53,545 nt of DNA from an uncultured Bacteroidales bacterium. GTDB lineage: Bacteria; Bacteroidota; Bacteroidia; Bacteroidales; Paludibacteraceae. Positions within the stretch are counted from its first letter, which is position 1. Every line of letters starts with the position of its first letter. Shown here one piece after another: positions 1,999 through 18,762 of the stretch. The DNA lies in assembly GCA_902798965.1 (NCBI GenBank), contig CADBYS010000020.1, forward strand, positions 1-53,545, given 5' to 3'. Made by a program: the position numbers and the translations under genes. The notes under the pieces are model-generated. The model saw nothing but the letters and a program-made list of their open reading frames with translations. It made no database searches and was not told where the DNA came from.

Positions 1999-2030
1999 CA
2001 AAGGTACAACATTTTTCTGACATATGCAAA
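1999..2030 (-). promoter_or_regulatory. Promoter of the Abi_2 gene (minus strand)
   Basis: On the minus strand TTTG (2027-2030) is followed after 20 bases by TACCTTTG (1999-2006), a perfect Bacteroidetes spacing. It supports the downstream ATG at 1926. The -33 region reads TTTGCATATGTCAGA, almost the same as in the DUF4325 promoter on the other strand. Confidence 0.8.
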
Positions 2031-2118: not shown

Positions 2119-2150
2119 CTTGCAAATATCAGATTTTTTTTGTAACTTTG
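2119..2150 (+). promoter_or_regulatory. Promoter of the ORF6N-sigma-dynamin-Hsp70 operon
   Basis: CTTG (2119-2122) and TAACTTTG (2143-2150) are 20 bases apart. The first gene starts 51 bases downstream. No terminator is visible from here to the IS at 10674, so this is the likely main promoter for the eight-gene series. Confidence 0.8.
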
Positions 2151-2201
2151 TAGGCATATTTATATAATAAGTATTTATGTACCATTGACCTCGGTAATAA
2201 T

Positions 2202-3275
2202 ATGGCAAAACACAGCGACATAGCGACAGTTGAAACCGGAGCTCTGCAACCATTGGAGCAAATTGAGAACCTCATCCATGTCATCCGTGGCAAGCAGGTC
2301 ATGCTTGACCGTGATTTGGCGCGGCTATATGGTGTGGAGACTTTCCGTTTAAATGAGCAGGTAAAACGTAACATTGAGCGCTTTCCTGAAGACTTTATGT
2401 TTAAGCTTACTAGAGAGGAGGCAGAATCTTCAAGATCGCAATTTGCGATGTTGAACGATGATAGCATCTCATCGCAAAATGCGAGGACATCTAGTACTGA
2501 AGAAATCTTGAAGTCACAAATTGTGACATCAAGTGATAACTCTTCAACATCGCAAATTGCGATATTGAAAGGAAGAGGACACAATATCAAGCATTTACCC
2601 TACGCCTTCACCGAAAACGGCGTAGCCATGTTGAGCAGTGTTCTCCGCACCCCCTTAGCCATCAGCACAAACATACAGATTATGCGTGCCTTTACGGCAT
2701 CACGGCATTTCTGGGCATCGAATGCCCAAATGTTCCAACGGCTGGAGAACATAGAACGCAATCAATTAGCTTTGAGCACACAACAAGTTGAGTTGTCTTC
2801 TCATCAAGAAGAGATGTCAACGCACCTATCAGAGAATGACAAAAAGCTCGAAGAAGTCTTCCGCCGCTTGGATAACGGCGAAGCCAAGCCAACACAGGGA
2901 TTGTTCTTCAACGGGCAGATCTACGATTCGTATGCTTTCGTTTGTGGCTTGGTCAAAAGTGCACAAAAGCGCATCGTCCTCATCGACAACTATATCGACG
3001 AAACCGTCCTAACGCTTCTTGACAAACGCGCAGCAGGTGTAACTGCCAAGATCTACACCAAGTTCTTCACCAAGCAGTTACGTCTGGATATCGACCGCTA
3101 TAACGCGCAATACGCCCCGATTGATGTCCTTCCGTTCCAAGACGCTCACGATCGGTTCTTATGCATCGACGACGAGGTCTATCATTTCGGCGCATCAATC
3201 AAGGACTTAGGACAAAAGTGGTTCGCCTTCAACAAGATGGAAATCACCACCGACATGCTCCTCAAGAAGATGTAA
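2202..3275 (+). CDS. ORF6N domain protein with degenerate PLD-like C-terminus
   Basis: Residues about 18-75 form an ORF6N domain (ENLIHVIRGKQVMLDRDLA, then YGVETFRLNEQVKRN), a KilA-N-related DNA-binding module of phage and accessory regions. A Ser/Thr/Gln-rich insert (about 77-125) with four SQ-x repeats precedes the usual YAFTENGVAMLSSVL segment. A predicted coiled coil (about 175-225) leads to a C-terminal domain of alternating strands with H316-x-R318-x4-D323 and a downstream GAS, which looks like the PLD HKD motif with Arg in place of Lys. The stop is 3 bases from the sigma-factor start, so the gene is first in the operon and may regulate it. Function beyond DNA binding is inference. Confidence 0.75.
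   Translation: MAKHSDIATVETGALQPLEQIENLIHVIRGKQVMLDRDLARLYGVETFRLNEQVKRNIERFPEDFMFKLTREEAESSRSQFAMLNDDSISSQNARTSSTEEILKSQIVTSSDNSSTSQIAILKGRGHNIKHLPYAFTENGVAMLSSVLRTPLAISTNIQIMRAFTASRHFWASNAQMFQRLENIERNQLALSTQQVELSSHQEEMSTHLSENDKKLEEVFRRLDNGEAKPTQGLFFNGQIYDSYAFVCGLVKSAQKRIVLIDNYIDETVLTLLDKRAAGVTAKIYTKFFTKQLRLDIDRYNAQYAPIDVLPFQDAHDRFLCIDDEVYHFGASIKDLGQKWFAFNKMEITTDMLLKKM
2435..2563 (+). repeat. Four near-palindromic repeats inside the ORF6N gene
   Basis: Near-palindromes lie at 2435-2449, 2472-2484, 2513-2527 and 2549-2563, each of the form TCGCAAAnTGCGA or TCACAAATTGTGA, about 35-40 bases apart. Each encodes an SQ dipeptide (SQFA, SQNA, SQIV, SQIA). Related ORF6N proteins, as I recall them, have one such SQ segment, so this looks like local amplification. 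Confidence 0.7.
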
Positions 3276-3278
3276 TAT

Positions 3279-3878
3279 ATGCCCTCCGCCATATCAAACA
3301 TATCCTCCCTCTCTGACCGCGAGATTGTTGCAGCACTCTTAGCGCGGGACAGAGCAATCACGGAAGCCTACTTCTATAGGAAGTGCTATCCGTTGTTCAA
3401 GTCGTGTTTTGATAAGTATTACACCGACTGCGAGACCTGTTTGGAGTTCATCAACGAGATATACTTGTATATCATGCTTCCCAATCCCCAAACGCACCAG
3501 TCATATATGGAGCGCTTCTCGTTCCGTTGCACTCTGACCGGTTGGTTGAGGATTGTTGCCGAGTCATATTGTCATCAACTTTTCCGGAAAAGAGGAGAAA
3601 TAATTCAAGAATCGTTAGATGATGCTGATAGATTTACCGAACTTGCTGACTCTCTACCTATAGAGCATAGCAATTTTGCCGGTGAAGATTTGCAGCATGT
3701 CTTGGCGATGATGCCCAATGTTCGTTACCGCGAGTTAATCCAATTACGCTACGTGGACAATTACACGAACGAGCAAACGGCCGCGAAACTTGGCATGACA
3801 ATGGACAATTACTACAACAAGCATTTATTGGCTAAGAAACAATTCATTACTGCATTGAAGAAGGAGGGCTTAGTATGA
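3279..3878 (+). CDS. Sigma-70 family RNA polymerase sigma factor (ECF-like)
   Basis: The 199-residue length fits an ECF-type sigma factor. An N-terminal region 2-like part (about 10-110) contains a helical stretch with the aromatic-rich SFRCTLTGWLRIVAESY. The C-terminal region 4-like HTH (about 145-195) contains YRELIQLRYVDNYTNEQTA and AAKLGMTMDNYYNKHLLAKK, the usual promoter -35 reader. The stop overlaps the start of the C39-like gene (ATGA), so the two are translationally coupled, a position often held by an anti-sigma gene. I infer that it directs transcription of this operon or linked genes, probably in response to a signal handled by the adjacent protease. The divergence is too high to assign a subclass. 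Confidence 0.75.
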   Translation: MPSAISNISSLSDREIVAALLARDRAITEAYFYRKCYPLFKSCFDKYYTDCETCLEFINEIYLYIMLPNPQTHQSYMERFSFRCTLTGWLRIVAESYCHQLFRKRGEIIQESLDDADRFTELADSLPIEHSNFAGEDLQHVLAMMPNVRYRELIQLRYVDNYTNEQTAAKLGMTMDNYYNKHLLAKKQFITALKKEGLV

Positions 3879-4975
3879 GTAAATTGGATATCACACCGGA
3901 TATTGCCGAATTGATGGGAGCCTATTTGGAAGGCAATCCGCTTTCCTCGCAGGAGCGAGAGATCGTGCAGAACGCAATGAATCGTTCAGGCATGGATAGC
4001 ATCCTGTCCGAGGTGTCATCTTTCCCTGTCATGGAAAACGACACGTTCCCTGTTGGCACCGAACTGTTGGCTGGCGAAATGGCTATGGACTTTATGGACA
4101 ATAACTATTTAACAGCAGCAGATATGCATACAGATTCTATCATCGGAGATGTGACTCCTTGCCCGGATATGATGAGTCACGACATTATTCAGCATCAGAG
4201 CGATACTTGTGCCATCAAGTCGCAGCAGATCATTTTACATTCTTTCGGCGTAGATATACCGGAAGAGATTCTTACCATCGAAGCCACAAGCCGAGGCTAT
4301 TACGTCCCCGGAAAAGGTAGTGCTCCTTCCCTTGTGGGCATGTTGCTCGAAGATCATGGTGTAGGCACGCACACCAAGTATCACGCCACGGTCTATGACT
4401 TGGCTGCCGAACTGGCACAGGGACACAAGGTTATCGTCGGAGTGGATGCCGATGAGTTGTGGCGTCCGTCTTTCTATAACGATCTGTTTGGCGAGCAAGC
4501 CAACCATGCGCTCATCGTTACCGGTATCGACACGTCCAATCCCTACGATGTCCACGTCCTGATTACCGACCCTGGAACGGGTGATGTAGCCCGTTCGTAT
4601 CCCATGGCGCAGTTCCTTGACGCATGGCATGACTCCTCGTGCATGATGGTCGCTACCGACACGGCTCCGCTGATATCGTATGATGGCGTTGTAGTCAATC
4701 CGGAAATGATCAATTTCGATTACGCTTCCGGTCATATCCCTTATATTGCCAACATCCCGTACGACATATTCGCCGACAATATGCTGCCGCGGTTTGATTA
4801 TTATTTCGATCATCAGCTCAGCGACCTGCATTCAACTATCGACTATCAGCATCTCTTTGACCACATGGACGATGCGTATGATAATTTCGATCAGCATTTT
4901 GCTTCGAATGACTCTAGCAACGACAACTGGGATATAAACGGAATAGATGATTTGTTTAGCCCTTTACTCATTTAA
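3875..4975 (+). CDS. C39-like (papain-fold) cysteine peptidase domain protein
   Basis: The N-terminal about 45 residues (AELMGAYLEGNPLSSQERE) resemble the cytoplasmic start of anti-sigma-like proteins. Residues about 105-260 form a C39-like papain-fold domain: DTCAIKSQQIIL places the catalytic Cys at 112, NHALIVTGID the His at 211, and ITDPGTGD the Asp at 232. The triad looks intact. The C-terminal about 100 residues are acidic, rich in Asp, His, Tyr and Phe, and low in complexity. There is no signal peptide or membrane segment, so it should act in the cytoplasm. It overlaps the sigma gene by 4 bases and ends 3 bases before the first dynamin gene. I infer a protease that may control the sigma factor or the GTPases; the substrate is unknown. 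Confidence 0.7.
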   Translation: MSKLDITPDIAELMGAYLEGNPLSSQEREIVQNAMNRSGMDSILSEVSSFPVMENDTFPVGTELLAGEMAMDFMDNNYLTAADMHTDSIIGDVTPCPDMMSHDIIQHQSDTCAIKSQQIILHSFGVDIPEEILTIEATSRGYYVPGKGSAPSLVGMLLEDHGVGTHTKYHATVYDLAAELAQGHKVIVGVDADELWRPSFYNDLFGEQANHALIVTGIDTSNPYDVHVLITDPGTGDVARSYPMAQFLDAWHDSSCMMVATDTAPLISYDGVVVNPEMINFDYASGHIPYIANIPYDIFADNMLPRFDYYFDHQLSDLHSTIDYQHLFDHMDDAYDNFDQHFASNDSSNDNWDINGIDDLFSPLLI

Positions 4976-4978
4976 GAT

Positions 4979-6880
4979 ATGAATTACACGGATATTGAAA
5001 GACAAAGCAAGCAGGTGAGAAACCTTTTGCAAGACGTCTACTTGCGAATCTCTCAACAGAGTTCTAACAACCTTCTTCCCACTCCCGATGCTTCGGTGCG
5101 TGCCGCCGGGAGTCTTATTCGTCAAGAGCAGTACGATGTAGTAGTTTGCGGTGAGGTCAAGAAAGGCAAGTCTTCTTTTATCAACGCACTCATGGGCGAG
5201 GAGATTCTTCCTACCAACACCCAAGTAGCAACTTCGCAAGTCTGCCGAATCATCAATAGCGACACCGAGGAGTATAACCTCGTCTTCACCGATGGAACGC
5301 GCAAACAGATTTCCCGCAAGGAGTTGTCGCGTTATGGTTCACAGGTTGATGCCGATATGTACGGCGAACCGGTCTTCCGCAACCATCAGTTGGACTATAT
5401 CGAGGTCAAACATCCGCTGCCCAACTTGCCCAAGTCCGTCGCATTAGTGGACACTCCGGGTATTGGTGCTGTGTATGCCGCACACGAACAGATAACACGC
5501 AACTATCTTAAGAAAGCCGCTGCCGTTATCTTTATCATCGATCCGAAGAATCCTATCGTCAAAGCCGAACAGGAGTTCATCGCCAGTGCCCTGAAAGTCA
5601 CCAAGCAGATCATGTTCGTGATGACTAAGATGGACAACTACGATGAGGGCGTCATCCAAACCATGATTAGCCGTGATATGGAGATTCTTGCTCCCCTGGC
5701 TTCGCAGACCGCCACGCGCAGGATTGATATTCTGCCCATCTCCAGTACGCTCCTGTTTGATGCCACGAAAGAGAAAGATGAACTGCTGTTGGAGATGAGT
5801 CGCTTTGAGGACATCAAGGATGCATTGCTTAAGATGATTTACAACACTCTCGGCTTTGAAATCAATGCACAAGTTTATAACATCTTGAACGGTTACAACA
5901 CGCGTGCCATGCAGTCTTTGGCAGAATTGCACACAGCTGTAACCTCGCAGCCTGCTGCCGCCAAAGAGTTAGCGGACAAGAAGTTTGCCAAGCAACAGGA
6001 GTTCATGCGCGATTGGGGAGCAAACGGTAGCAAGATCCGCGAAATCAACGATGCTATCAAGCAACCCATCCGTGGCTTGGAGAATGAGGCACGTAGCCTC
6101 TTTAGCCAGACGCACCATATCTACAAGAACATGGCTGCTGAGATTGACAATCTCTCCTCTTTGGACGAGGCAAAACGTCTGTCGAATAACATGAGTGCTC
6201 GTCTCTCGGATTCCTACGGCAAGTCATGGAAGGATACGATTGAGAACTGTGCGGAGCAGATTGAATCAATCTTGGCAAGTTACAATGCTCATCTCAACGA
6301 TTTGGATAGTGCCAACGCTCGCGTATCCGTGGATGCATTCAGCATCAAAAAGTCCTCGTTCGCCGAGCGGCTGACATCCGGTAGGAATAGTTATTTTACA
6401 GGCATGTTCATCACATCAGTCTTTGCTATTCCTTTGACTCTGGTTGCAGCTCCGCTCACTTTGGCTGTGGCTGCTATAGGTGCGTTACTCGGCATAGGCG
6501 CAGGAGTGATGACGCATCGTGATACGGAACTCAAGCAGTACAAGCAGCAACTAAAGGAACATCTCAACAAATGTTTCTCGCAGATTCATGATGAGTTCCT
6601 CGTCAAACCGCAATCGGACGGATTGACCCGTCTGCAAGAGACAGAGGATGATCTTCAGCGCAATACGCAGAAGACAATGGAACAGATCTTTGAGCAGCAC
6701 AAAGCGAATAACGAAAAGCAACTGAAATTAATAGAAGAACAAGTTCAGGCAGATGCGGAGAAACGCAAGCAAAAACTGGCTGAGATAACGCAACTGCAAC
6801 AGCAATGGAAACCTGTTGTGACCGGCTTGCAGCAGGCTAAAGCCATCTTATCGCAATTAGAACAAAACAAAGCATTATGA
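4979..6880 (+). CDS. Dynamin-like GTPase with membrane-inserting hairpin
   Basis: The 633-residue protein has a full dynamin-type GTPase domain: G1 GEVKKGKS (58-65), a switch Thr near 81-85, G3 DTPG (158-161) and G4 TKMD (216-219). A long helical region follows (about 290-470), then a hydrophobic stretch of about 40 residues (about 475-515, Leu/Ala/Val/Gly-rich) like the paddle or hairpin of bacterial dynamin-like proteins, and a C-terminal coiled coil rich in Gln, Lys and Glu. It should bind and remodel membrane in a GTP-dependent way. Its stop overlaps the Hsp70 start (ATGA). A second dynamin follows the Hsp70 gene, matching the paired arrangement of other bacterial dynamins. The coupling to Hsp70 is unusual. 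Confidence 0.85.
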   Translation: MNYTDIERQSKQVRNLLQDVYLRISQQSSNNLLPTPDASVRAAGSLIRQEQYDVVVCGEVKKGKSSFINALMGEEILPTNTQVATSQVCRIINSDTEEYNLVFTDGTRKQISRKELSRYGSQVDADMYGEPVFRNHQLDYIEVKHPLPNLPKSVALVDTPGIGAVYAAHEQITRNYLKKAAAVIFIIDPKNPIVKAEQEFIASALKVTKQIMFVMTKMDNYDEGVIQTMISRDMEILAPLASQTATRRIDILPISSTLLFDATKEKDELLLEMSRFEDIKDALLKMIYNTLGFEINAQVYNILNGYNTRAMQSLAELHTAVTSQPAAAKELADKKFAKQQEFMRDWGANGSKIREINDAIKQPIRGLENEARSLFSQTHHIYKNMAAEIDNLSSLDEAKRLSNNMSARLSDSYGKSWKDTIENCAEQIESILASYNAHLNDLDSANARVSVDAFSIKKSSFAERLTSGRNSYFTGMFITSVFAIPLTLVAAPLTLAVAAIGALLGIGAGVMTHRDTELKQYKQQLKEHLNKCFSQIHDEFLVKPQSDGLTRLQETEDDLQRNTQKTMEQIFEQHKANNEKQLKLIEEQVQADAEKRKQKLAEITQLQQQWKPVVTGLQQAKAILSQLEQNKAL

Positions 6881-8133
6881 GTGTTACCATCGGAATAGAT
6901 TTCGGAACAAGTTTCTGTTCTGCTTCATGGATTAATCCCAATACTGGAAAACCCGAAGCCGTTCGGTTCAAGGATACAGGAAGCGAGAAATTGCCTTCCG
7001 TTATTGCTTTCTCTAATTCAGGGAAAGCTTTTGTCGGAAGTGGACCATATACGCAATTGGAGAATCTTTCCATCGATGCTTCTTTGTCCGAAGATGAACG
7101 AGAAATGCAATTGTGCAATTTCTTCACAAGCATCAAAACACATATCCGGCAAGGGCAGACATGGAGGCGCCCGGAGAAATCGTACACAGATGCAGACTTG
7201 ATTGCTATTATTCTCAAAAAGATCAAAGATGAAGTAGAAATCTCTGTACCTGTAGAGGGCAAAATAGACAAGGTAGTTCTGACACATCCTGTTGAGTTCG
7301 AGGAATGGAAGAAAGAGATATTAAAACATGCAGCCGCTTTGGCTGGGTTTAAGAAAGTCAAACTACTGGAAGAACCCAATGCCGCAGCCATCTATGCGTT
7401 AAAAGCAAAACTCATTCCTGCTACTTGCAAAGGTCTTCTGGTATATGACTTTGGTGCAGGAACATTTGATGTGACTTATCTTCAGATTGATTCAGATGGT
7501 CAACCGCACATGCCCGTGTCACCTCAAGGAGATGCGAAGTGTGGCGGAGATGATATTGACAAAGCACTTTACGATGATTGGAACAAATACACCAAAGCAA
7601 CGAAGAATCGCGAAGTATCAGCAAATCCTAATGAACTGGATATCGCATTTATGTATCGTTGCCGTCGTCTAAAGGAGCAACTGAGCAAAGGCTTTATAAG
7701 CGATGAGATTAGCGAGTATATTCCGGGCATTGGTCGAATCCGTCGCCCGTTCAACGAAAAAGATTTCAATCGTATCGTTGAACCAATCGTGGATAGAACG
7801 ATTGCCAAGGTGAAAATTGTTCTTGATGAGATCAAACAGAAGAATCTTCCTCTAACTCACGCTGTGCTCATTGGTGGTAGTTCCAATCTGCCTTTAGTTC
7901 AGACCAAGATGCAGAACGTCCTCGGTAATGGTGTCAAACTAATCACTACCGGCAATTATGACATAGCCGTGGCCGTTGGTGCAATGTATTCGGTAGATAC
8001 TGTTATTAATGTTATTAAACCGAAAAAGGAAGAACCTAAAGAGTGCTATTGTATCTACTGTGGACATAAGATATTGACTTCCCATAAGGTTTGTATGTAT
8101 TGTGGTAAACCTAATTTCTCGTATAAGCCATGA
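6877..8133 (+). CDS. Hsp70-family ATPase with C-terminal zinc ribbon
   Basis: Residues 1 to about 380 make an Hsp70/actin-fold ATPase domain: phosphate 1 loop IGIDFGTSFC (5-14), phosphate 2 VYDFGAGTFDVT (about 189-200), the LLEEPNAAAIYAL segment, and the adenosine loop VLIGGSSNLPLV. The beta-sandwich substrate-binding domain and lid are missing. A short Lys/Glu/Pro linker instead leads to a zinc ribbon with CIYC (about 391-394) and CMYC (about 407-410). At 418 residues it is far shorter than DnaK (about 640). It probably uses ATP cycling to hold or load partners through the ribbon, not to refold clients. Starts and stops overlap both flanking dynamin genes (ATGA on each side). Confidence 0.85.
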   Translation: MSVTIGIDFGTSFCSASWINPNTGKPEAVRFKDTGSEKLPSVIAFSNSGKAFVGSGPYTQLENLSIDASLSEDEREMQLCNFFTSIKTHIRQGQTWRRPEKSYTDADLIAIILKKIKDEVEISVPVEGKIDKVVLTHPVEFEEWKKEILKHAAALAGFKKVKLLEEPNAAAIYALKAKLIPATCKGLLVYDFGAGTFDVTYLQIDSDGQPHMPVSPQGDAKCGGDDIDKALYDDWNKYTKATKNREVSANPNELDIAFMYRCRRLKEQLSKGFISDEISEYIPGIGRIRRPFNEKDFNRIVEPIVDRTIAKVKIVLDEIKQKNLPLTHAVLIGGSSNLPLVQTKMQNVLGNGVKLITTGNYDIAVAVGAMYSVDTVINVIKPKKEEPKECYCIYCGHKILTSHKVCMYCGKPNFSYKP

Positions 8134-9770: not shown

Positions 9771-9810
9771 ATTTATTTTAATATGGGAGTTGTTTAACGA
9801 ATTAATAATT

Positions 9811-10452
9811 ATGGATTTTTTAAGATTAAATAAAATTAAAGACGTAAGAAATTTTGACACTATACCATATGTGCCATTTATAACACGTCTTTGTGCAATA
9901 TCTTTTTTGATTTTCCTTGTTCTTAAATTATGTGGTGTTATTACTTGGTCATGGTGGTGGGTAACTGCACCTATTTGGATGCCAACATGTATAGCTCTTA
10001 CTCTTTTAATGTTGTTTGTCTGCCTGGAACGTAATGAACAGCAAAGCAATAAGATTGAAAAACCAGCGCAGCGACATCATCAGCTCACCGAGATGCTCGT
10101 GGAACGAGAGGTTATCACGCATGAGGCTGAGGCAGGTGAGTTATCTATGGACTTTCAGCAACTCTGCCGGAAATTAGCAGAGATGGTGAAGATGTACGAT
10201 CAGATGGCAAAACAGATGCCTGCAGGCGAAGCGAAAGACTTGGCAGAAGATTTCTCTGACCAGATCATTACCACACTCAGCTTGTGCGATGGTTGCACGG
10301 CTATCATCAACGAGCCGACTTTCGACGCCCACCGCCATACACCTGTTCCTTTCTCTATGGCCGAAGATGGTACACCTATCCAATCCTTCCTCCGCATGGG
10401 AATCGCGATTAACGACCAAGTAATAATTCCTGCTAAAGTTAAAATTTCATAA
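9811..10452 (+). CDS. Membrane-anchored GrpE-like protein (predicted nucleotide exchange factor)
   Basis: The 213-residue protein has two predicted membrane helices (about residues 24-70, with many Leu, Ile and Trp), then a helical stretch (about 80-165). The C-terminal about 45 residues match the GrpE beta-domain pattern: F171-D172-A-H-R-H-T-P-V like the FDPxxHxAV of GrpE, then GIAINDQVIIPAKVKIS like GYxLxDRVLRPAxVxVS. GrpE releases ADP from Hsp70, and an Hsp70 gene lies two genes upstream. I infer a membrane-tethered exchange factor for that Hsp70. The start at 9811 is chosen over an earlier ATG at 9742 because the upstream frame overlaps the dynamin gene and adds no conserved sequence. The assignment rests on the C-terminal pattern. 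Confidence 0.65.
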   Translation: MDFLRLNKIKDVRNFDTIPYVPFITRLCAISFLIFLVLKLCGVITWSWWWVTAPIWMPTCIALTLLMLFVCLERNEQQSNKIEKPAQRHHQLTEMLVEREVITHEAEAGELSMDFQQLCRKLAEMVKMYDQMAKQMPAGEAKDLAEDFSDQIITTLSLCDGCTAIINEPTFDAHRHTPVPFSMAEDGTPIQSFLRMGIAINDQVIIPAKVKIS

Positions 10453-10454
10453 TT

Positions 10455-10679
10455 ATGCCACGAAAAATGGGTACACTACAGCAAGAAGGATATAATTATG
10501 CTGATTCCCTTATACAAAATTACAATGACCCTAATTGTGCATCAAGGATAGAGACATGGCGAAATCGAATAACACGAGGGCATGATATAGAGAATTTCAT
10601 AAATAAGAATGGCAATTTTAATCGACGTCAAGTTAAACAAATTGTTGACTATGCCAAGTCTTATATTAGAAATCATTAG
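10455..10679 (+). pseudogene. Small operon gene interrupted by IS insertion
   Basis: The frame starts 2 bases after the GrpE-like stop and encodes a basic, Asn/Arg-rich protein (GYNYADSLIQNYNDPN, WRNRITRG). The last His codon and the TAG stop (10674-10679) belong to the left end of the IS. Removing the IS and one copy of the 9-bp target duplication joins Asn73 to codons 12040-12075 (MINEYYRQTGLY) and a TAA at 12076-12078, restoring an 85-residue protein. The missing 12 residues may or may not be needed. No known domain is recognised. The restored stop would be 11 bases before the BspA-type gene, so the operon ran through here before insertion. Confidence 0.75.
10665..10673 (+). repeat. Left copy of 9-bp IS target duplication
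   Basis: ATTAGAAAT directly before the IS left end; the identical copy is at 12031-12039. Confidence 0.9.
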
Positions 10680-12030
10680 TGTCCACTAAATAAAATTTAT
10701 AATAGATGTTAACATGCGTATTTATAAGTGTTTAGATAGTAAAATTCCTCCGTGAGGGTTCTGGCGTACTTTTTGCTGAGGATAGGTCGGATTTTAAGAT
10801 TCGACTTAGGATGAGCAAATACGTGTTTCGGCAGTTGGTGGACTTGTTGCCCCATCGAGTGTTCGACAGAATGGTTGATAAATATCAAGGCAACAAGTAC
10901 GTGCGTTCTTTTACATGTTGGAATCAATTGCTGGTGATGATGTTCGCTCAGTTGATTGGATTTGGCAGTTTGCGCGAGATGATTCTGTTCTGTATGGCTC
11001 ACAAAGCCAAGACGCAACATCTTGGATTCGGAGACATCGGAGTCACTCGAAGTAACCTCTCCAAGGCTAATCAGCAACGAGATTACAGGATATTTGAGGA
11101 GTTTGCATATCATCTTGTCAGTATGGCTCAAAGTAAACGAATCAATAGAATCTTTGAGTTGAAGGGTAAATTCTATGCCTTTGATTCTACGACTATTGAT
11201 CTTTGTTTGAGCATCTTTTGGTGGGCGGCCTTTCGCAAGAAGAAGGGAGGAATCAAGGTGCACACCTTGTTTGATATAGTGACGCAGATCCCTACGTTCT
11301 TTCATATTACTGCCGCTAATGTGCACGATGTCAGAGCGATGGACGAGATCCCTTACGAGCAACACGCTTACTATATCTTTGACAAAGGCTATTACGATTG
11401 GGCTAGATTGTACAATATCAGCACTTTGCAAGCCTACTTTATCATCCGTGAGAAGAATAATATCCAATACGAAATCACCGATGGAGACGAGGTGCTTGAC
11501 GGAAAAGATAACATCCTGTTTGACCAGCGAATCCGCTTGACGACTTATACAGCTAAGAAGCGGTTTCCGGGTGAGCTCAGACGAATAGGTTTTTACAGCG
11601 AGGAGTACCACCGGACGTTTGTCTATCTGACCAACAACTGGGAGATAAGTGCGAAGGATGTTGCTCTGTTGTACAAGTATCGCTGGCAAGTCGAATTGTT
11701 CTTTAAGTGGCTCAAGCAGCACTTGCAAATCAAGAAGTTTTGGGGCACAAGCGAAAATGCTGTGCGCATCCAAATCTATACTGCCATTAGTGCGTATTGC
11801 TTGGTTGCTATTGCGGAACACGACTACGGGTTGGATAGAAGCATGTTTGATGTCCTGCGTGTAGTCAGCAACTCGTTGCTCGATACGATGCCTATCCGAG
11901 AGTTGTTTGGCAACCTCGAAGCGGATAAAACCATATGTGATGATACTCAACAGCAAATTGATTTCGATTGTTAAAAATGTACGATTTTTAAGATTGATTT
12001 TTTAACAGTCCATTTTAGTGGACACTAATG
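10674..12030 (+). mobile_element. Complete IS4-family insertion sequence, 1357 bp
   Basis: The ends are perfect 17-bp inverted repeats: CATTAGTGTCCACTAAA at 10674-10690 and its exact complement at 12014-12030. A perfect 9-bp direct repeat flanks them. One transposase gene fills the element. Because the repeat and both ends are intact, the insertion is probably recent and the element may still be active. It sits inside a small gene of the dynamin-Hsp70 operon and divides that operon. Confidence 0.93.
10811..11974 (+). CDS. IS4-family DDE transposase
   Basis: The 387-residue protein has an N-terminal DUF4372-like domain (FRQLVDLLPHRVFDRMV, WNQLLVMMFAQL) and an IS4-type RNase H-fold catalytic domain. 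The DDE triad can be read as D125 in AFDSTTIDL, D191 in YIFDKGYYD and E295 in YRWQVELFFKWLKQHL, the last also matching the IS4 Y-(2)-R-(3)-E-(6)-K signature. Length and motifs are intact, with no frameshift. It catalyses cut-and-paste movement of the surrounding element. IS10-group members of IS4 also make 9-bp target duplications, as seen here. Confidence 0.93.
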   Translation: MSKYVFRQLVDLLPHRVFDRMVDKYQGNKYVRSFTCWNQLLVMMFAQLIGFGSLREMILFCMAHKAKTQHLGFGDIGVTRSNLSKANQQRDYRIFEEFAYHLVSMAQSKRINRIFELKGKFYAFDSTTIDLCLSIFWWAAFRKKKGGIKVHTLFDIVTQIPTFFHITAANVHDVRAMDEIPYEQHAYYIFDKGYYDWARLYNISTLQAYFIIREKNNIQYEITDGDEVLDGKDNILFDQRIRLTTYTAKKRFPGELRRIGFYSEEYHRTFVYLTNNWEISAKDVALLYKYRWQVELFFKWLKQHLQIKKFWGTSENAVRIQIYTAISAYCLVAIAEHDYGLDRSMFDVLRVVSNSLLDTMPIRELFGNLEADKTICDDTQQQIDFDC

Positions 12031-12039
12031 ATTAGAAAT
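12031..12039 (+). repeat. Right copy of 9-bp IS target duplication
   Basis: ATTAGAAAT directly after the IS right end; identical to 10665-10673. The rest of the interrupted small gene continues at 12040-12078. Confidence 0.9.
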
Positions 12040-12089
12040 ATGATAAACGAATATTATAGACAGACTGGATTGTATTAAATATTGAGAAT

Positions 12090-13910
12090 ATGGCTTATTT
12101 TGATAAATATGATGTCGAGTTTAGTGACGACCGCAAAACATTAGTTCGCTGTCCAGAGGACTTTGAGGGAGATTATGTCATTCCCAATGGTGTCACATGC
12201 ATAGGAGATGACGCTTTCTCTGATTGCGATAGGATGACCTCAGTTGAAATCCCGAATAGTGTCACAAGTATTGGAGATGATGCTTTCTCTGATTGCATAG
12301 GTATGAATTCGGTAATCATCCCCAATAGCGTCACGCATATTGGAAAATATGCTTTCTCCGGCTGTTCCTGTTTGACCTCTGTGACAATTCCTAATAGCGT
12401 CACAAGCATTGGAGATGGTTCTTTTGAAAATTGCGCGGTTCTGACCTCTATCGAAATTGAAAAGAGAAATCAATATTATTGTTCAGATAATGGGATACTC
12501 TTTAATAAAGACAAGACAACATTAATTCAATATCCCGCTGGCAAAAAGGAACTATCATATGTTCTCCCCAACAGCGTTACATGCATCGGAGATTTGGCTT
12601 TCTCTGGTTGCACCGGTTTGACCTCAATCGAAATTCCCAATAGTGTTACAATTATTGGATATAGGGCATTCTCTGGTTGTTGTTTGACCTCTGTGACAAT
12701 TCCTAACAGCATCACAAGCATTGGAGATGGTGCATTTGAAGATTGCTCGGTTTTGAACTCTATCGAAATAGATGAGAGAAATCAATATTATCATTCAGAT
12801 AATGGGATACTCTTTAATAAAGACAAGACAACATTAATTCAATATCCCGCAGGCAAAAAGGATAAATCTTTTGCTGTCCCCACCAGCATTATATGCATCG
12901 GAGATTTGGCTTTCTCAGGTTGCATTAAGTTGACCTCAATTGAAATCTCCAATATTGTCACAAGCATTGGAGACGATGCTTTCTATGGCTGCATTGGTTT
13001 GACCTCTGTGACAATTCCCAATAGCGTCACAAGCATTGGAGATCGGACTTTCTGTAAATGCAGCAGTTTGACTTTTGTGACCATCCCCAACAGCGTAACA
13101 AGCATTGGTGATTGCGCTTTCTCGGATTGCACAGATTTGTCCACTATTGAAATTCCGAATAGTGTCACTATCATTGGGAATCATGCTTTCGATGGTTGCA
13201 GAAGTTTGACTTCTGTCAAAATTCCCAATAGTGTCACAAGCATCGAACATGGCACTTTCTGTGATTGCAGTAGTCTGAATACTGTGACGATAGGCAATAG
13301 CGTTAATAGCATTGGCGATGAAGCTTTCTATGGCTGCACTTGTCTGACCTCTGTGACAATTCCCAATAGCGTCACAAGTATTGGAGATCGGACTTTTTGT
13401 AAATGCAGCAGTTTGACTTCTATGACTATCCCCAACAGCATCACAAGTATCGGAATATGTGCGTTCTCTGATTGTTCTGGTTTGACTTCAGTTGCTATAG
13501 GCAATAGTGTCACAAGCATTGGAGAATACGCTTTCTCTGATTGCGCCAGTTTGGTCTCCGTGGCAATCCCTAATAGTGTCACAAGCATTGGAGAGGAGGC
13601 ATTCGATGGTTGCAACAATTTAACATCAGTCTTGATTCCAAGCAGAGGGGATGATATAGAAAAACTAGTTAAACAAACTTTTGGAGAGACTGTTAGAATA
13701 ATTAGACGCGATCCAAAAGAGACTCACTTTTGGACAAATAATGAAACTGCGCGACTCGTAACATGCACAAAATGTAAAAAAAGGTATAGCGCTTCGTATA
13801 AATTCTGTCCTCATTGTGGCACAGAGCAATCGCATTCTTGCCCTCGGTGTGGACATAACAACATTCCCGTTGATGCTCTCTTTTGCCCTGAATGTGGAAC
13901 TAAAATATAA
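12090..13910 (+). CDS. BspA-type leucine-rich repeat protein with two C-terminal zinc ribbons
   Basis: After a short head (MAYFDKYDVEFSDDRKTLV) come about 18 LRR_5 repeats of 23 residues with the pattern SVTSIGDxAFSDCxxLTSV. Two islands with NGILFNKDKTTLIQYPAGKK interrupt the ladder; at DNA level they are nearly identical and 312 bases apart. The C-terminus has two C4 ribbons, CTKC...CPHC and CPRC...CPEC. There is no signal peptide, so unlike adhesin-type BspA proteins it should be cytoplasmic, probably a binding or sensor scaffold. It follows the IS-cut small gene and is 18 bases before the DUF2971 gene. A paralogue lies at 52492-53490. Confidence 0.85.
   Translation: MAYFDKYDVEFSDDRKTLVRCPEDFEGDYVIPNGVTCIGDDAFSDCDRMTSVEIPNSVTSIGDDAFSDCIGMNSVIIPNSVTHIGKYAFSGCSCLTSVTIPNSVTSIGDGSFENCAVLTSIEIEKRNQYYCSDNGILFNKDKTTLIQYPAGKKELSYVLPNSVTCIGDLAFSGCTGLTSIEIPNSVTIIGYRAFSGCCLTSVTIPNSITSIGDGAFEDCSVLNSIEIDERNQYYHSDNGILFNKDKTTLIQYPAGKKDKSFAVPTSIICIGDLAFSGCIKLTSIEISNIVTSIGDDAFYGCIGLTSVTIPNSVTSIGDRTFCKCSSLTFVTIPNSVTSIGDCAFSDCTDLSTIEIPNSVTIIGNHAFDGCRSLTSVKIPNSVTSIEHGTFCDCSSLNTVTIGNSVNSIGDEAFYGCTCLTSVTIPNSVTSIGDRTFCKCSSLTSMTIPNSITSIGICAFSDCSGLTSVAIGNSVTSIGEYAFSDCASLVSVAIPNSVTSIGEEAFDGCNNLTSVLIPSRGDDIEKLVKQTFGETVRIIRRDPKETHFWTNNETARLVTCTKCKKRYSASYKFCPHCGTEQSHSCPRCGHNNIPVDALFCPECGTKI
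12465..12862 (+). repeat. Internal 312-bp-period duplication in the BspA-type gene
   Basis: Segments 12465-12550 and 12777-12862 differ at only a few bases over 86, far less than the surrounding 69-base LRR units. This indicates a recent duplication of 104 codons (four LRRs plus one island), in frame. Confidence 0.75.
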
Positions 13911-13928
13911 TTAAAAAAGATTGATACG

Positions 13929-14756
13929 ATGAAAAATTATACAAGACAAAATCGTGCAGACTTGCTAAAAAGAGCTGATGACTCGCTTGCGTGTGAAGCA
14001 GAGTTAAGAAGAGATGCTAATGCCATTAATCTGACATTAGACACTCCGATATATAGAATTTTTCGTTATGAGCGTTTTGTCGAGCTTCTCAAGTCAGGGA
14101 AAAATACCTTAGTGCGACCTTCCACGTGGGAAGATCCGTTTGAGAATGTTTTATTCAACCATCAATATCTTGATGCTTCTGGAAAAGAAATAGACCTGTC
14201 AAGCATTCGTGATAGTTGGTATGGTCAATGCTGGACAGATAAAGAAGCAGAGTGTGATGGGTTGTGGAGAGTCTATAGTGATAATGGAAAGAACAGAAGT
14301 GTAAGAGTCAAGACAACAGTGCGCAAGATTTTTGAACCATTTTTTGACGGAAGTAAAGATAAAGAATGGCAGTATTTTATAGGCAAAGTGGACTATTCCC
14401 ATGTAGAGGACATCACTGGTATAATAAATGATTTTGCCCAAGCTTTTGTCGGAGATGAGCAAAATGTAAATCAAATGCAATTACTACTAACAAAGCGCCA
14501 AGAATTTGCTTATGAAAGCGAAGTAAGATTGTTATATTGCAAGGGTGTTGATATGAATAATCATGATGTAGTCTATCAATATGCAATTAATCCCAATGAA
14601 GTGTTCGAGGATGTCTTATTAGATCCATGGTGCCCTGATAGATTGGTTAGAAATTATAAAGATGAACTTTATAATGCTGGCTATCACGGAGATGTTCGCA
14701 AAAGCGAACTCTACGCGCCAATAAATCTAAAAACAAAACTTAATTTTATCGTATGA
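13929..14756 (+). CDS. DUF2971 family protein
   Basis: The 275-residue protein fits DUF2971: IYRIFRYERFVELLKSGKN (about 38-56), PSTWEDPFENVLF (about 60-72), a CWTDKEAECDGLWRVYS segment (about 97-113) and the late FAYESEVRLLY. DUF2971 proteins are common in defence and accessory loci, but I know of no proven activity. There is no signal peptide or membrane segment. The gene lies 18 bases after the LRR gene and overlaps the next zinc-ribbon gene by 4 bases (ATGA), so it belongs to the same unit. Confidence 0.75.
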   Translation: MKNYTRQNRADLLKRADDSLACEAELRRDANAINLTLDTPIYRIFRYERFVELLKSGKNTLVRPSTWEDPFENVLFNHQYLDASGKEIDLSSIRDSWYGQCWTDKEAECDGLWRVYSDNGKNRSVRVKTTVRKIFEPFFDGSKDKEWQYFIGKVDYSHVEDITGIINDFAQAFVGDEQNVNQMQLLLTKRQEFAYESEVRLLYCKGVDMNNHDVVYQYAINPNEVFEDVLLDPWCPDRLVRNYKDELYNAGYHGDVRKSELYAPINLKTKLNFIV

Positions 14757-15283
14757 AATACTGTTCAAAATGTGGGGAGCAGAACCCCGACGAAGCAAAA
14801 TTCTGTTCAAGTTGTGGCGAACCGTTAACCGCGAAGGAATCGGTCTCTAATAAGATTGCTGCCACTTGGGATTTGGATGCGGTTGACTTAGATCAGATCA
14901 AGGTCATCTTCGCTGATGGCTACAATATAGAAGCGGAATATGAATCCGGCGAAGATAGTGCTAATGTTGATTCTTGCTTGTCAATAGATTTCCTAAGGGG
15001 CAAATTAAATGGAATCGACTACAAGCACCCTAATAGTCAAGTTGCATTGTGCGTAGGATTTACGCCAGAGGTGATAACGCACTTCTTCAAGCCCGACGAG
15101 TACACCGGTAAAATCTTGCACACCCACAACTGCTATGACAATAGCGGCTGCGTAATAAGTGATGATGAGTGGTGGAGGAAATATGGCAAGATTTTCTTTG
15201 AAGATGTTGAACCTCTAAGAGCTAAACTCACAGAATTCTTCGGCTTTGACATCATCGAAGATAAATATTGGGCAGAAAGATAA
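14753..15283 (+). CDS. Zinc-ribbon protein of unknown function (176 aa)
   Basis: A C4 zinc ribbon opens the protein (CSKCGEQNPDEAKFCSSCGE, Cys 4, 7, 18 and 21). The rest (about 35-176) is an acidic alpha/beta region that I do not recognise, with WDLDAVDLDQIKVIFADGY and a C-terminal WWRKYGKIFFEDVEPLRAK. No catalytic motif or membrane segment is clear. It overlaps the DUF2971 gene and is followed after 18 bases by another zinc-ribbon gene. The ribbon closely matches those at 15302, 17027 and 18275. Confidence 0.7.
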   Translation: MKYCSKCGEQNPDEAKFCSSCGEPLTAKESVSNKIAATWDLDAVDLDQIKVIFADGYNIEAEYESGEDSANVDSCLSIDFLRGKLNGIDYKHPNSQVALCVGFTPEVITHFFKPDEYTGKILHTHNCYDNSGCVISDDEWWRKYGKIFFEDVEPLRAKLTEFFGFDIIEDKYWAER

Positions 15284-15301
15284 TTAAACAATAAAGCACA
15301 A

Positions 15302-15952
15302 ATGAAAACTTGTCCGAATCCAAAATGTAATATGTCCGGCATCCCTGATGATGCCAAGTTCTGCCCTGATTGCGGAGCGTCTTTGTGTTTGCCCAAACCG
15401 GCGAAAAGAAAGAATACTGCAAAATCATCCCTCTTTGGTGGAACAGGCACTCCAAGTTCTATTAAAGGATGTCTCCTTGTAGATATACGTCAATGTCGGC
15501 GTATGAGCGGACTTGGCTGGGATGGTATGTATGAGTTTTCCCCGGGCTTGCCGGTAGGCTATACCGGATTCTTTGCTGTGTTTGATGAATCTCTAAATAT
15601 TCAGATTAGGGTGGAACATGGAAAAATATCCAAGATTTTCTTTGTGGCTGGTGATTATGAACTTAGAGTTTGGCGAGGAGAAAAAGAAGTTTCATATACG
15701 GTAATTGAAGGATGGTGGATATTCAAAGATCTATATGAGAAACATCGGAATGTTCCTGTGACTTATTTTGGGTGGTATAAGAAGAATGTCTTACTTTCCG
15801 AAAAAGATGCAGAAAAAGAAGTGAGTGGTGTTTCTTCAACAATTGATAAGCTCCTTGATAAATGTGATACTACGTATAAAAAAGAGTCACAAGATTTCTT
15901 TGGTATGTCGTGGGAGCAACTAATGGAACACTCTGAGTATTTCGCTTCCTGA
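15302..15952 (+). CDS. Zinc-ribbon protein with a duplicated novel domain (216 aa)
   Basis: The start is a CPNPKC...CPDC zinc ribbon (about residues 4-25). After a short linker, residues about 48-216 form a domain also present at the C-terminus of the protein at 17027-17905. Shared positions include VDIRQCRRMSGLGWDGMYEF, GLPVG, GFFAVFDES, GKISKIFF and a final DFFGMSWEQL. I do not recognise this domain. No signal peptide or membrane segment is present. The gene sits 18 bases after one zinc-ribbon gene and 28 before the HD gene. Confidence 0.7.
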   Translation: MKTCPNPKCNMSGIPDDAKFCPDCGASLCLPKPAKRKNTAKSSLFGGTGTPSSIKGCLLVDIRQCRRMSGLGWDGMYEFSPGLPVGYTGFFAVFDESLNIQIRVEHGKISKIFFVAGDYELRVWRGEKEVSYTVIEGWWIFKDLYEKHRNVPVTYFGWYKKNVLLSEKDAEKEVSGVSSTIDKLLDKCDTTYKKESQDFFGMSWEQLMEHSEYFAS

Positions 15953-15980
15953 TGATACTAAGTTAATTTAACATAAAACT

Positions 15981-17027
15981 ATGAATTTACTGGAAACATA
16001 TAATAAAATTCTGAGCAATCCAGAAAAATGGAAGTATTATTCTCGGATGGATCTAAGTGGTATCCGGTGTGAAGTGAGTACATTATTTCGTAATGATGAT
16101 AATGCACGTAGATTTATAGAACGTTACTTCCAAGCCGGTAATAAACTTAATATCTTTTATGACCATTCGCAAACGGGAATGGAGAGCCGTTGGACTCATA
16201 CATTATCTGTCTTTCTGTTAGGTATCGTATTAAGCGATGTACTTGGAATTGATATGACGGAAGAGAATGAATGTCATAATAAGGCGAATTTATATCATTG
16301 GTTCTTAACATGTCTTTATCATGACTACGGTTACGTAATAGAGAAGAATCCTAGTGTATATCCTCCCCGTGAATACAGGCTACACAAGTTGTATCGGGAT
16401 TGTAATGGTAATCCCAAATACTACTTGCGCAACAGAAAAAGGGAGAGCGAGTTCTCTGATTCTGTAAGATGGAGATATTATGAATGGGGAAGGCGCAAAC
16501 GTGATGGTTTTGTTAATCATGGAATAATAGGAGGGCTAATGTTATATAGCCAATTGTGTGAGTTCTTGGAAATGATGATCAAGAATCATGGTGGACAGAC
16601 TGATTTTATTGATGATAATATCGGATTGCACTATTCAATCAATCAAATTACGGACTTCGCCTTATGTGCCGATGCAATTATTGCACATAACATTTGGTTT
16701 AATGTATCACCACTTTCGGAATTAAAACTAATTGATGGTGAACGACATGTTTACAAGCAATGGTTAACTGCATTATTAGTCCTGTGTGATACTATTGAGC
16801 CACTCAAAGCTTTTCCTAACGATGATTATATATCAGTACTTGAGAATATCAATATAGATTTTAACTCCACTACTGATAGTATTAATATTTCAGGAGACTA
16901 TTCAGGTGTTGATTACTCCCAATATTTGGGAAAGTGTGAATCACTCAAAACATGGACGTATGCGAAAGTAGATAAAGATGATAGAAACGTCACGCTTAAT
17001 AATATTCGCAAACTATACAGATTGTAA
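15981..17027 (+). CDS. Predicted HD-superfamily phosphohydrolase
   Basis: The 348-residue protein shows an ordered set of HD-type ligands: H73 in RWTHTLSV, H114-D115 in CLYHDYGYV, H180 in VNHGIIGG, H236 in ADAIIAHNIW and D270 in LLVLCDTIE. This matches the H...HD...H...H...D order of metal-dependent HD phosphohydrolases, which often cleave nucleotides or cyclic nucleotides. The substrate cannot be read from sequence. A basic, Tyr-rich insert (about 121-170) separates the HD pair from H180. The gene lies between two genes that share a novel domain and overlaps the second by one base (TAATG), so the three are probably co-translated. Confidence 0.65.
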   Translation: MNLLETYNKILSNPEKWKYYSRMDLSGIRCEVSTLFRNDDNARRFIERYFQAGNKLNIFYDHSQTGMESRWTHTLSVFLLGIVLSDVLGIDMTEENECHNKANLYHWFLTCLYHDYGYVIEKNPSVYPPREYRLHKLYRDCNGNPKYYLRNRKRESEFSDSVRWRYYEWGRRKRDGFVNHGIIGGLMLYSQLCEFLEMMIKNHGGQTDFIDDNIGLHYSINQITDFALCADAIIAHNIWFNVSPLSELKLIDGERHVYKQWLTALLVLCDTIEPLKAFPNDDYISVLENINIDFNSTTDSINISGDYSGVDYSQYLGKCESLKTWTYAKVDKDDRNVTLNNIRKLYRL

Positions 17028-17905
17028 TGAAAACTTGTCCTAATTGTAAAACAATAGGCATCCCGGATGATGCAAAATTCTGTCCTAATTGTGGCACATC
17101 TTTATGCTTTTCTGAACCCGTTAAGCGGATGACGGTTTCTGAATGCCGTATAGTTCCTAGTATCATTTCGAAGGGTGAATCATGTAAATTAATATGGAAA
17201 GGGGAAAACGTCAAATCTATTGAAATCGAAGGCATACCATATAATATCTGTGAAGATATTGTGCTCAAGCCATCCCATTCGCGCACTTGGAATATCCTTT
17301 TTATTGGCGAAGACAGATACAAAAATATTATCCGTGATCAAATAGTGATTACTGTAAAATCACCGTTCCTATTTGATGGCAAGGGGACAGAGAGCGAAAT
17401 TAAAGGTTATTATAAAGTGGACGTTCGCCAATGCAAACGCACAAATGGATTAGGTTGGGATGGGGAATATGAATTCCCACAAGGATTGCCTGTCGGCTTC
17501 TCTGGATTTTATGCCTTGTTTGATGACTCTCAAACTATACAGATTTTGATAGAAGAAGGGAAAATATCCACTATATTCTTTACTTCAGAAGGCTATACTT
17601 ATAAATTCTGGAGAGGATTCCAAGAAGAGGAGTATTCTACCTGGGAAGGTAGTAAATGGTTTGGCGGTTTTGTAACAAAATATCGAGATAAAAAAGTCAT
17701 ATTTTATGGACTTTATGATAAAGATAACAAACTGCTGTATCATTCTGTGGCTAACTGTAATAAGGCGAGAAGTTGCATCGATTTATTAGATATGATGGAT
17801 GATAAATATAAGAACGAAGTGATTGATTTCTTCGGAGTTTCATGGAGCCAATTATATGAAGATGAAGATGTTGTAGATTATGAAAGTTACATATCTAAAA
17901 ACTGA
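17027..17905 (+). CDS. Zinc ribbon + Ig-like fold + duplicated novel domain (292 aa)
   Basis: There are three parts. A C4 ribbon (CPNCKTIGIPDDAKFCPNCG) opens the protein. A beta-rich segment (about 35-110; SIISKGESCKLIWKGENVKS, then LKPSHSRTWNILFIG) reads like a small Ig-like sandwich. The C-terminal about 170 residues match the protein at 15302 (VDVRQCKRTNGLGWDGEYEF, GLPVGFSGFYALFD, GKISTIFF, DFFGVSWSQL). It shares one base with the HD gene. A hairpin starts 41 bases after the stop, so this may be the last gene of the main operon. The role is unknown. Confidence 0.7.
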   Translation: MKTCPNCKTIGIPDDAKFCPNCGTSLCFSEPVKRMTVSECRIVPSIISKGESCKLIWKGENVKSIEIEGIPYNICEDIVLKPSHSRTWNILFIGEDRYKNIIRDQIVITVKSPFLFDGKGTESEIKGYYKVDVRQCKRTNGLGWDGEYEFPQGLPVGFSGFYALFDDSQTIQILIEEGKISTIFFTSEGYTYKFWRGFQEEEYSTWEGSKWFGGFVTKYRDKKVIFYGLYDKDNKLLYHSVANCNKARSCIDLLDMMDDKYKNEVIDFFGVSWSQLYEDEDVVDYESYISKN

Positions 17906-18724: not shown

Positions 18725-18762
18725 AAAATGCCACTCCACTGATAGAAACCAATAATTCTGCA

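Follow-up and report, generated by a model that had tools for sequence, protein, structure and literature searches.

A conserved operon joins two dynamins, an Hsp70 and a GrpE-like protein

The window analysed here is the whole contig CADBYS010000020.1 (53,545 nucleotides; label G000:C20) from the 2.85 Mb genome of an uncultured gut bacterium of the Bacteroidales (assembly GCA_902798965.1; Paludibacteraceae). At positions 3279-10452 it carries an operon whose genes encode, in this order, a sigma factor, a C39-like peptidase, a dynamin (dynamin 1), an Hsp70, a second dynamin (dynamin 2) and a GrpE-like protein. Judged from its sequence, this operon may encode a machine for defence or stress that is directed at the membrane and has not been described before. 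The same gene order recurs in other loci and is therefore more than chance, and we regard the conserved gene set as real with near certainty. Beyond what an earlier note on this DNA had described, the Hsp70 has no substrate-binding domain and carries a zinc ribbon in its place, zinc ribbons follow a pattern around the operon, and related systems have been published. According to the sections consulted of PMC6104087, dynamin genes in bacteria mostly occur as operon pairs. Here the pair appears to come with its own ATP switch, a dedicated GrpE and built-in transcriptional control.

The genes lie on the forward strand and are tightly packed. The gene for the ECF-like (extracytoplasmic function) sigma factor (3279-3878; 199 residues), the first of the conserved operon, shares an ATGA overlap at 3875 with that for the peptidase (3875-4975; 366 residues). 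The dynamin 1 gene (4979-6880; 633 residues) overlaps the Hsp70 gene (6877-8133) in the same way at 6877, as does the latter the dynamin 2 gene (8130-9770; 546 residues) at 8130. The GrpE-like frame spans 9742-10452, its start being likely at 9811 rather than 9742. ORF calling confirmed this series of genes and the three ATGA overlaps, both reported in the earlier note, and its largest gap of 40 bases is obtained with the start at 9811.

To look for relatives, we ran an Hsp70 alignment against 84,980 species genomes of bacteria and archaea, which found 178 relatives, of which 80 were kept. The nearest relatives that bear a name belong to the Bacteroidales. Among the 17 loci closest by Hsp70 (L040-L056, counted with L041, L046 and L049 included), dynamin 2 was present in 17, dynamin 1 in 16, GrpE in 16, C39 in 13 and the sigma factor in 6. 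Two of the four loci without C39 (L046, L051) lie on contigs whose first base falls within dynamin 1 or some 400 bases upstream of it. A dynamin was present in 7 of the 63 other, more distant Hsp70 loci, and the layout persists down to about 26-35% Hsp70 identity. The earlier note had raised the possibility that the genes are not conserved together elsewhere; what we found was co-occurrence.

Searches that started from other genes gave a consistent but sparser picture. When C39 was the starting point and 395 Bacteroidota genomes, counting that of the window, were searched, 10 had a match: the window's genome itself, G154 and G247 with strong matches, and seven with weak ones that sit in frames of 1086-2766 residues. 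Both strong matches adjoin dynamin 1; G154 has dynamin 2 and two Hsp70s too, while the G247 contig stops inside dynamin 1. The system is rare and patchy in its occurrence: in a sample of 150 relatives, only 3 of the 149 genomes other than the window's own matched dynamin 2 strongly. These matches (L013, L014, L015) lie on the same contigs as L041, L047 and L056 and are not independent of the Hsp70 scan. Of the weak matches in this sample, L007 and L009 were not taken as the system, and L008 led to L016, where a sigma factor and C39 occur with divergent GTPases and Hsp70 is absent. Two records named as strains carry the operon, Xylanibacter rodentium PROD and Marseilla massiliensis An824, which makes the system testable.

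Plasmids, including some from other phyla, carry versions of the system as well. Among 72,556 plasmid records, the C39 domain was found in 24 and a dynamin 2 relative in 29; 18 of the 20 dynamin 2 records listed fall among the 24 C39 records, most of them from two related genera. On Anabaena sp. 90 pANA01 the order is Hsp70, a gene we could not name, two DO-GTPases (one above and one below the Pfam cut-off), another such gene, C39, a third, and two dynamins, with a CHAT protein upstream of the locus. In Rhodococcus qingshengii RQCS_2 the order is C39, small gene, sigma factor and, after about 4 kb of other genes, dynamin, GrpE-like, dynamin, Hsp70 and Hsp70, and Rhodococcus USK13 has one dynamin, Hsp70, C39 and a sigma factor. 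We rejected a phage origin: there was no C39 match in 50,697 phage records, and the 17 stretches of IMG/VR that matched a pattern encoded no relative.

Some records call for caution. Labels such as Kiritimatiellae, Lentisphaeria or Methanobrevibacter on short metagenome contigs may be binning errors. Probably the same applies to L049, labelled Oscillospiraceae yet 99.99% identical over 13.9 kb to L048 of Xylanibacter rodentium PROD. The Hsp70 of L013/L041 (2149-3521, genome G019) is spread over two frames, through a frameshift or an assembly error. The weak C39 matches in frames of 1086-2766 residues (L032-L039) come from eight genomes that all belong to one family.

The Hsp70 has a zinc ribbon in place of its substrate-binding domain

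The Pfam HSP70 match (1.6e-37) covers residues 5-370 only, and the listed PDB matches stop at 371-373 of 418 residues. The nucleotide-binding domain itself appears intact, with ATP-motif residues D8-S12, D191, G193, G195, T196, D198, G333 and G334 invariant in 16 sequences. It is followed by a zinc ribbon (8047-8112) that scores above the cut-off. A ribbon occupies this position in most loci and is degenerate in L048 and L052. Other modules are found on some Hsp70s: WG repeats are fused to that of L050, Sel1-like repeats with ferredoxin-like cysteines were read at the C-terminal side of that of L055, and an FGE-sulfatase domain is fused to one Hsp70 of L123.

Zinc ribbons also cluster around the operon. 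The window's genome has 7 matches to Zn_Ribbon_1 (5 of them above cut-off) and 4 to Zn_ribbon_3, and every one of them falls within an island of 10.3 kb at 8047-18355. We extended the search to 12 other genomes, setting aside those of L041, L042, L046, L049, L051 and L054, and counted single ribbons, the Hsp70's own included, as nearby if they lay on the operon contig within about 10 kb, dynamin 2 being placed in each genome. In the nine genomes whose Hsp70 carries a ribbon, degenerate or not, 37 of 52 matches lay beside the operon (window 7/7, L040 5/5, L043 4/7, L044 7/14, L045 5/5, L047 6/6, L048 2/5, L052 0/1, L053 1/2). The four genomes whose Hsp70 has no ribbon had 0 of 12 there (L050 0/0, L055 0/8, L056 0/2, L098 0/2). 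By locus, an Hsp70 ribbon and nearby ribbon proteins were both present in 11 and both absent in 5 (p 2e-4, with classes assigned by hand and the value inflated by related loci). Ribbon proteins in L052 and L053, and in L048 the degenerate ribbon of the Hsp70, escaped a regex scan and were set as present from other evidence; the absence of ribbon proteins in L054 is by regex only.

What lies behind the ribbons varies. Among 32 hand-picked ribbon proteins, 31 of which match Zn_Ribbon_1, we found LRR_5 in 4, DUF285 in 2, and Fib_succ_major, WG repeats (L043 by motif) and FGE-sulfatase (L051, and L044, by reading) in 1 each. WG repeats and FGE-sulfatase are thus fused to Hsp70 in some loci and follow a ribbon in others, which makes the ribbon look like an adaptor. 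In the sections consulted, Kaur et al. 2020 (PMC7159879) made the same fused-or-adaptor-linked argument for effector-associated domains.

The Hsp70 is not tied to dynamins everywhere. In 14 of the 63 more distant loci an Hsp70 and a GrpE-like gene occur with dynamin absent, and the pair therefore looks like a portable switch. The Hsp70s of these loci (L076, L077, L079, L080, L083, L084, L091, L092, L094, L095, L100, L101, L102 and L104) are about 490 residues long. In three of the four that we read (L076, L083 and L101, not L104), the pair lies beside genes that we labelled by eye as kinase-, vWA- and PP2C-like.

The last gene of the operon encodes a protein with a predicted GrpE fold

The GrpE-like protein of the window was found by Pfam only at E 0.36 (10.9 bits), below the cut-off. 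We therefore turned to structure prediction. In a model built on an alignment of 15 homologues, the block of residues 131-236 reached a pLDDT (predicted local distance difference test) of 85-97, and the top 12 PDB matches were all GrpE entries (E 2.0e-4 to 1.9e-2). The whole-model template modelling (TM) scores were low, 0.21-0.28, because the long helices probably lie differently. Two relatives gave better Pfam scores, the copy of L098 passing the cut-off with 34.5 bits and that of the Rhodococcus plasmid L121 reaching E 1.2e-4 (22.2 bits), below it. The model thus supports a GrpE fold made of a helix pair and a beta domain, where the earlier note had foreseen that structure prediction might fail to do so.

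In the window's model, long helices of lower confidence, with a hydrophobic stretch, precede the GrpE part. The Rhodococcus protein has an N-terminal hydrophobic helix (hydropathy 2.29), and the other copies often have a short hydrophobic-basic start. Five genomes, among them that of the window, have frames of 664-739 residues in which one segment resembles residues 97-131; we take these frames to be FtsH.

The two dynamins differ in a hydrophobic segment

Both dynamins match Dynamin_N in Pfam, dynamin 1 at 2.2e-25 and dynamin 2 at 1.1e-14. By sequence, the solved structures nearest to dynamin 1 are Nostoc BDLP, IniA and 5owv (PDB matches 2j68 8.7e-18, IniA 2.3e-15 and 5owv 3.9e-7), and dynamin 2 matches IniA at 2.6e-5. 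We know of no Hsp70/GrpE switch for any of these dynamins. With PADLOC, dynamin 1 matches LeoBC at 1.1e-21 over residues 146-609, and dynamin 2 matches LeoBC at 4.7e-10 and, weakly and over part only, LeoA at 2.9e-7.

The earlier note had called the nucleotide motifs of the Hsp70 and both dynamins intact. This is so for the Hsp70 residues given above, for dynamin 1 (G1 GEVKKGKS, G3 DTPG, G4 TKMD) and for G1 and G3 of dynamin 2 (GRVKAGKS, DTPG), but the G4 position of dynamin 2 reads SRID instead of (N/T)KxD. The G4 pattern that we used was unmatched in 7 of 19 dynamin 2 copies.

All 18 copies of dynamin 1 examined contain a hydrophobic segment in the last third of the protein, near residue 488 in the window, with a maximum 19-residue hydropathy of 1.84-2.44. 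Dynamin 2 has no strongly hydrophobic segment, its maximum being at most 1.56 in 19 copies. On the Rhodococcus plasmid, dynamin 1 reaches 2.21.

A putative anti-sigma domain on the C39-like peptidase accompanies the sigma factor

The sigma factor matches TIGR02937 at 6.9e-11, with 42.1 bits against a cut-off of 42.9, and Pfam Sigma70_r4_2 at 1.2e-5, just below the cut-off. The next protein consists of an anti-sigma-like N-terminus and a C39/papain-like cysteine peptidase. No Pfam family matched the window's copy, while Peptidase_C39_2 matches those of L045, L123 and L124 with E 5e-5 to 1.5e-4, near or at the cut-off. Residues Q106, C112, H211 and D232 are invariant in 14 aligned sequences and, by analogy, would be the catalytic residues. 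The structure model was modest, with a mean pLDDT of 62 and block means of 75-91 over residues 111-190 and 58-85 over 191-260. Its best PDB matches were C39 and other papain-like peptidases (3erv at 5.2e-5, 6mpz with a root-mean-square deviation (rmsd) of 2.7, 3k8u with rmsd 3.2). Structure prediction therefore supports the C39 call too, less firmly than the GrpE call, and did not fail in the way that the earlier note had allowed for.

Among the Bacteroidota loci examined, an extra C39 N-terminus of the ELLxAYLDG type was present in 8 of 8 loci with a sigma gene beside C39 and in 0 of 5 without one, classes that were set by hand on reading and that include related loci, which inflate the p-value here too. 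A profile search found no sigma factor in the five loci whose C39 is without the extra N-terminus. L123 has neither the sigma factor nor the N-terminus, and L124 has a sigma factor and an N-terminus with H-x3-C-x2-C. In L098 the N-terminus is a separate gene between those for sigma and C39. The zinc motif HxxxCxxC occurs in L045 (zf-HC2 E 0.017, below the cut-off) and, by reading, in L124, where zf-HC2 gave no match. From these sequences we infer that the unit is an anti-sigma factor fused to a peptidase, with the N-terminus presumably binding the sigma factor. The earlier note had cast sigma factor and protease as the switch of the system; that the anti-sigma-like N-terminus tracks the sigma gene speaks for this, and the switching itself remains a proposal.

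Relation to known systems

We found no paper describing this gene set in the open-access literature searched, and the earlier note knew of no named system with it. Related systems, which the note did not mention, have been published. In the sections consulted, Kaur et al. 2020 (PMC7159879) describe GTPase-centric conflict systems (DO-GTPase/GAP1), including a GAP1-N2 theme with HSP70 and GrpE. As in our operon, the GTPases are often paired, HSP70 occurs with GrpE, and there are zinc ribbons and membrane parts; a subset of the HSP70s has no peptide-binding domain, like that of the window, and variable domains are coupled by shared small adaptor domains, a role that the ribbons of the window may play. 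The window differs in having dynamins and no DO-GTPase (Pfam, 20 window ORFs, 789-21375), and in including a sigma factor and C39 in the operon; the main text of PMC7159879 names neither dynamin nor C39 nor sigma factor. Some of our relatives combine both kinds of GTPase: L015/L056 and L120 have a DO-GTPase pair beside the dynamins, one member above and one below the Pfam cut-off, and L078 has DO-GTPases by similarity to these. No GAP1 family was found with Pfam in the 20 window ORFs or in the candidate proteins of L015 and L120, whether the copy used holds GAP1 models being unchecked.

Eleos is an anti-phage system. Like our operon, Eleos/LeoABC has two tandem dynamins, and dynamin 1 matches LeoBC. 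In contrast, dynamin 2 is closer to LeoBC than to LeoA, and Hsp70 and DnaK are absent from the text of the LeoABC paper (PMC4159319), the consulted sections of which link the paired dynamins to secretion. A cyanobacterial ‘chaperone clade’ of dynamins (PMC5827413) has a DnaK-domain gene downstream of the dynamin, and thus resembles the operon in having a DnaK-type gene near a dynamin; the sections consulted mention adjacency alone, and C39 is absent from the text. CoCoNuT systems use Hsp70-like domains, and the text consulted (PMC11090510) mentions neither dynamin nor GrpE. With the DnaK-GrpE chaperone pair the operon shares an Hsp70 nucleotide-binding domain and a GrpE fold, but it differs in its Hsp70 having no substrate-binding domain and its GrpE-like protein having N-terminal hydrophobic helices. 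DnaJ was not found by Pfam among the 20 window ORFs scanned.

A model for the system and its alternatives

Based on this composition, we propose that the operon encodes an inducible, membrane-directed conflict system, probably anti-phage or abortive, and a dynamin-based variant of the GTPase/HSP70 systems, a proposal that we hold to be about evenly balanced between right and wrong. The anti-sigma-like C39 protein would hold the sigma factor until a signal activates or removes the peptidase, which would free the sigma factor and raise expression. Dynamins 1 and 2 would form a heterotypic pair on the inner membrane, with dynamin 1 inserting into the lipid. The Hsp70 would act as an ATP-timed switch and not as a folding chaperone, bringing interchangeable binding or effector modules, joined to it through zinc ribbons or by direct fusion, to the dynamin assembly. 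A membrane-held GrpE may exchange the Hsp70 nucleotide at the membrane and so set dynamin assembly and release; such control of the dynamins by Hsp70 and GrpE, already suggested in the earlier note, is a conjecture. Once triggered, the dynamin pair could remodel, seal or permeabilise the membrane.

Defence genes occur around several of these loci. A PD-T4-5-like/Abi_2 defence candidate lies just upstream of the operon (1267-2001, reverse strand; 2.6e-13), an AbiE pair lies beside L041, and in L123 (genome G154) a 98-copy CRISPR array with cas4 and cas1 adjoins the C39/dynamin/Hsp70 locus (11135-17566, 17814-19793).

The genes of the operon also appear to have travelled together. Pairwise distances of dynamin 1, Hsp70, dynamin 2 and GrpE agree with r 0.86-0.95 (13-16 loci), and those of C39 agree with these four with r 0.82-0.87 (11-13 loci), in both cases with 0 of 1000 permutations as high, in a test that had no species-tree control, so that vertical descent could explain part of the correlation. 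We left out L049 (99.99% identical to L048), L046 (96.9% identical to L047 over 4451 bases), L041 (split Hsp70, partial C39), the second Hsp70 of L054 and the partial Hsp70 of L055.

That possible contribution of descent is one of several points that weigh against our proposal. The sigma factor is present in only the 6 of 17 closest loci noted above, and its distances agree poorly with the rest (r 0.32-0.68, n 6-8; 12 to 117 of 1000 permutations as high). By reading, the C39 N-terminus of the window is without the HxxxCxxC zinc motif of anti-sigma factors, and the C39 protein of Anabaena, whose gene has no sigma gene as a neighbour, starts with an acidic extension. Dynamin 1 of the Anabaena plasmid reaches a hydropathy of only 1.45. 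GrpE was not found in L056, L120 and L123 with a profile that also missed the L098 copy detected by Pfam. We rejected an amphipathic N-terminus as a general feature of the GrpE-like proteins, since it beats shuffles at 0.05 in 5 of 17 copies, a suggestive count that includes the duplicate L049 and the near-duplicate L046. The plasmid loci L120 and L122, whose Hsp70 has no ribbon, each contain a single ribbon-like sequence by regex. In the window, the zinc-ribbon genes (12090-18724) are set apart from the operon by an insertion sequence, and no known toxic effector was recognised. Finally, the defence genes may be mere neighbours.

We put forward a wider version of the proposal only tentatively and think it somewhat doubtful: that bacteria have a class of immune machines, widespread and so far unnamed, built around an Hsp70 without a peptide-binding domain that serves as a pure ATP switch, is reset by a membrane-tethered GrpE, carries ribbon-plugged recognition modules (LRR, WG, FGE-sulfatase) and gates a paired dynamin coat at the inner membrane, with a sigma/anti-sigma-protease switch controlling the whole. 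In eukaryotes, coats are acted on by Hsc70. If the proposal is true, Hsp70/GrpE cycling can time membrane remodelling in much the same manner, and zinc ribbons are plug-in adaptors, much as effector-associated domains are in other conflict systems of bacteria.

The strongest alternative, which we consider possible but unlikely, is a role in envelope stress or membrane repair, in which the sigma/anti-sigma-C39 unit senses damage and induces a membrane-patching dynamin pair whose coat is recycled by Hsp70 and GrpE. ECF-like sigma factors that have an anti-sigma partner frequently govern the response to envelope stress, and the hydrophobic segment of dynamin 1 and the N-terminal hydrophobic helices of the window and Rhodococcus GrpE proteins would suit such a role. 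DynA of B. subtilis is reported to act in membrane surveillance and phage resistance (sections consulted of PMC8844932). The patchy distribution, the plasmid copies, the variable ribbon-linked domains and the CRISPR, AbiE and DO-GTPase neighbours suit a conflict system better. We find it improbable that the operon is a LeoABC-like vesicle or export machine, in which the dynamin pair buds the membrane while Hsp70 and ribbon proteins load cargo: this would fit the LeoBC match of dynamin 1, but not the lack of any mention of Hsp70 or DnaK in the LeoABC text. The dynamin-less Hsp70/GrpE loci and L016 might suggest that there is no single machine and that a sigma/C39 unit, a dynamin pair and an Hsp70/GrpE switch act separately and merely travel together; in view of the tight overlaps, the same order in distant loci and the correlated distances, we hold this to be very improbable.

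Genes flanking the operon

The earlier note had let the operon start at a promoter at 2119 and include the gene for an ORF6N protein (2202-3275, forward strand; Pfam ORF6N 2.7e-32, PDC-S05-like by PADLOC), which ends 3 bases 5' of the sigma gene. Neither survived. The promoter-like site at 2140-2168 is one of 19 such sites, where 20.7 are expected by chance, and we rejected a promoter at 2119-2168. The ORF6N gene lies outside the conserved unit, because relatives have none next to sigma, L045, L047 and L053 showing only 650-1240 bases upstream.

Downstream of the operon, all on the forward strand, comes first the insertion sequence (10663-12041), with a DDE_Tnp_1/DUF4372 transposase at 10811-11974 and 28-base inverted repeats at 10663 and 12014; it is not part of the system, and in L040 a zinc-ribbon gene lies directly 3' of GrpE without an insertion. 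It is followed by a BspA-type leucine-rich-repeat protein with two C-terminal zinc ribbons (12090-13910; LRR_5 1.1e-142, Zn_ribbon_3 1e-9), a candidate sensor or effector, and by a DUF2971 protein (13929-14756), the PADLOC candidate PDC-S31 (4.7e-70), an accessory of uncertain membership. Next are two N-terminal zinc-ribbon proteins, a candidate adaptor-linked accessory at 14753-15283 (Zn_Ribbon_1 7.5e-10) and an accessory at 15302-15952 that matches a ribbon profile weakly. A 348-residue protein at 15981-17027, also of uncertain membership, gave no family in the Pfam scan. The N-terminal zinc-ribbon protein at 17027-17905 (Zn_ribbon_3 6.7e-7) has a close relative in L040 (3e-101), and a zinc-ribbon protein of 151 residues with a weak profile match (18269-18724) lies just beyond the region 2119-17905. 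Near the far end of the window, on the reverse strand at 52492-53490, is a protein with nearly the same N-terminus as the leucine-rich-repeat zinc-ribbon protein at 12090.

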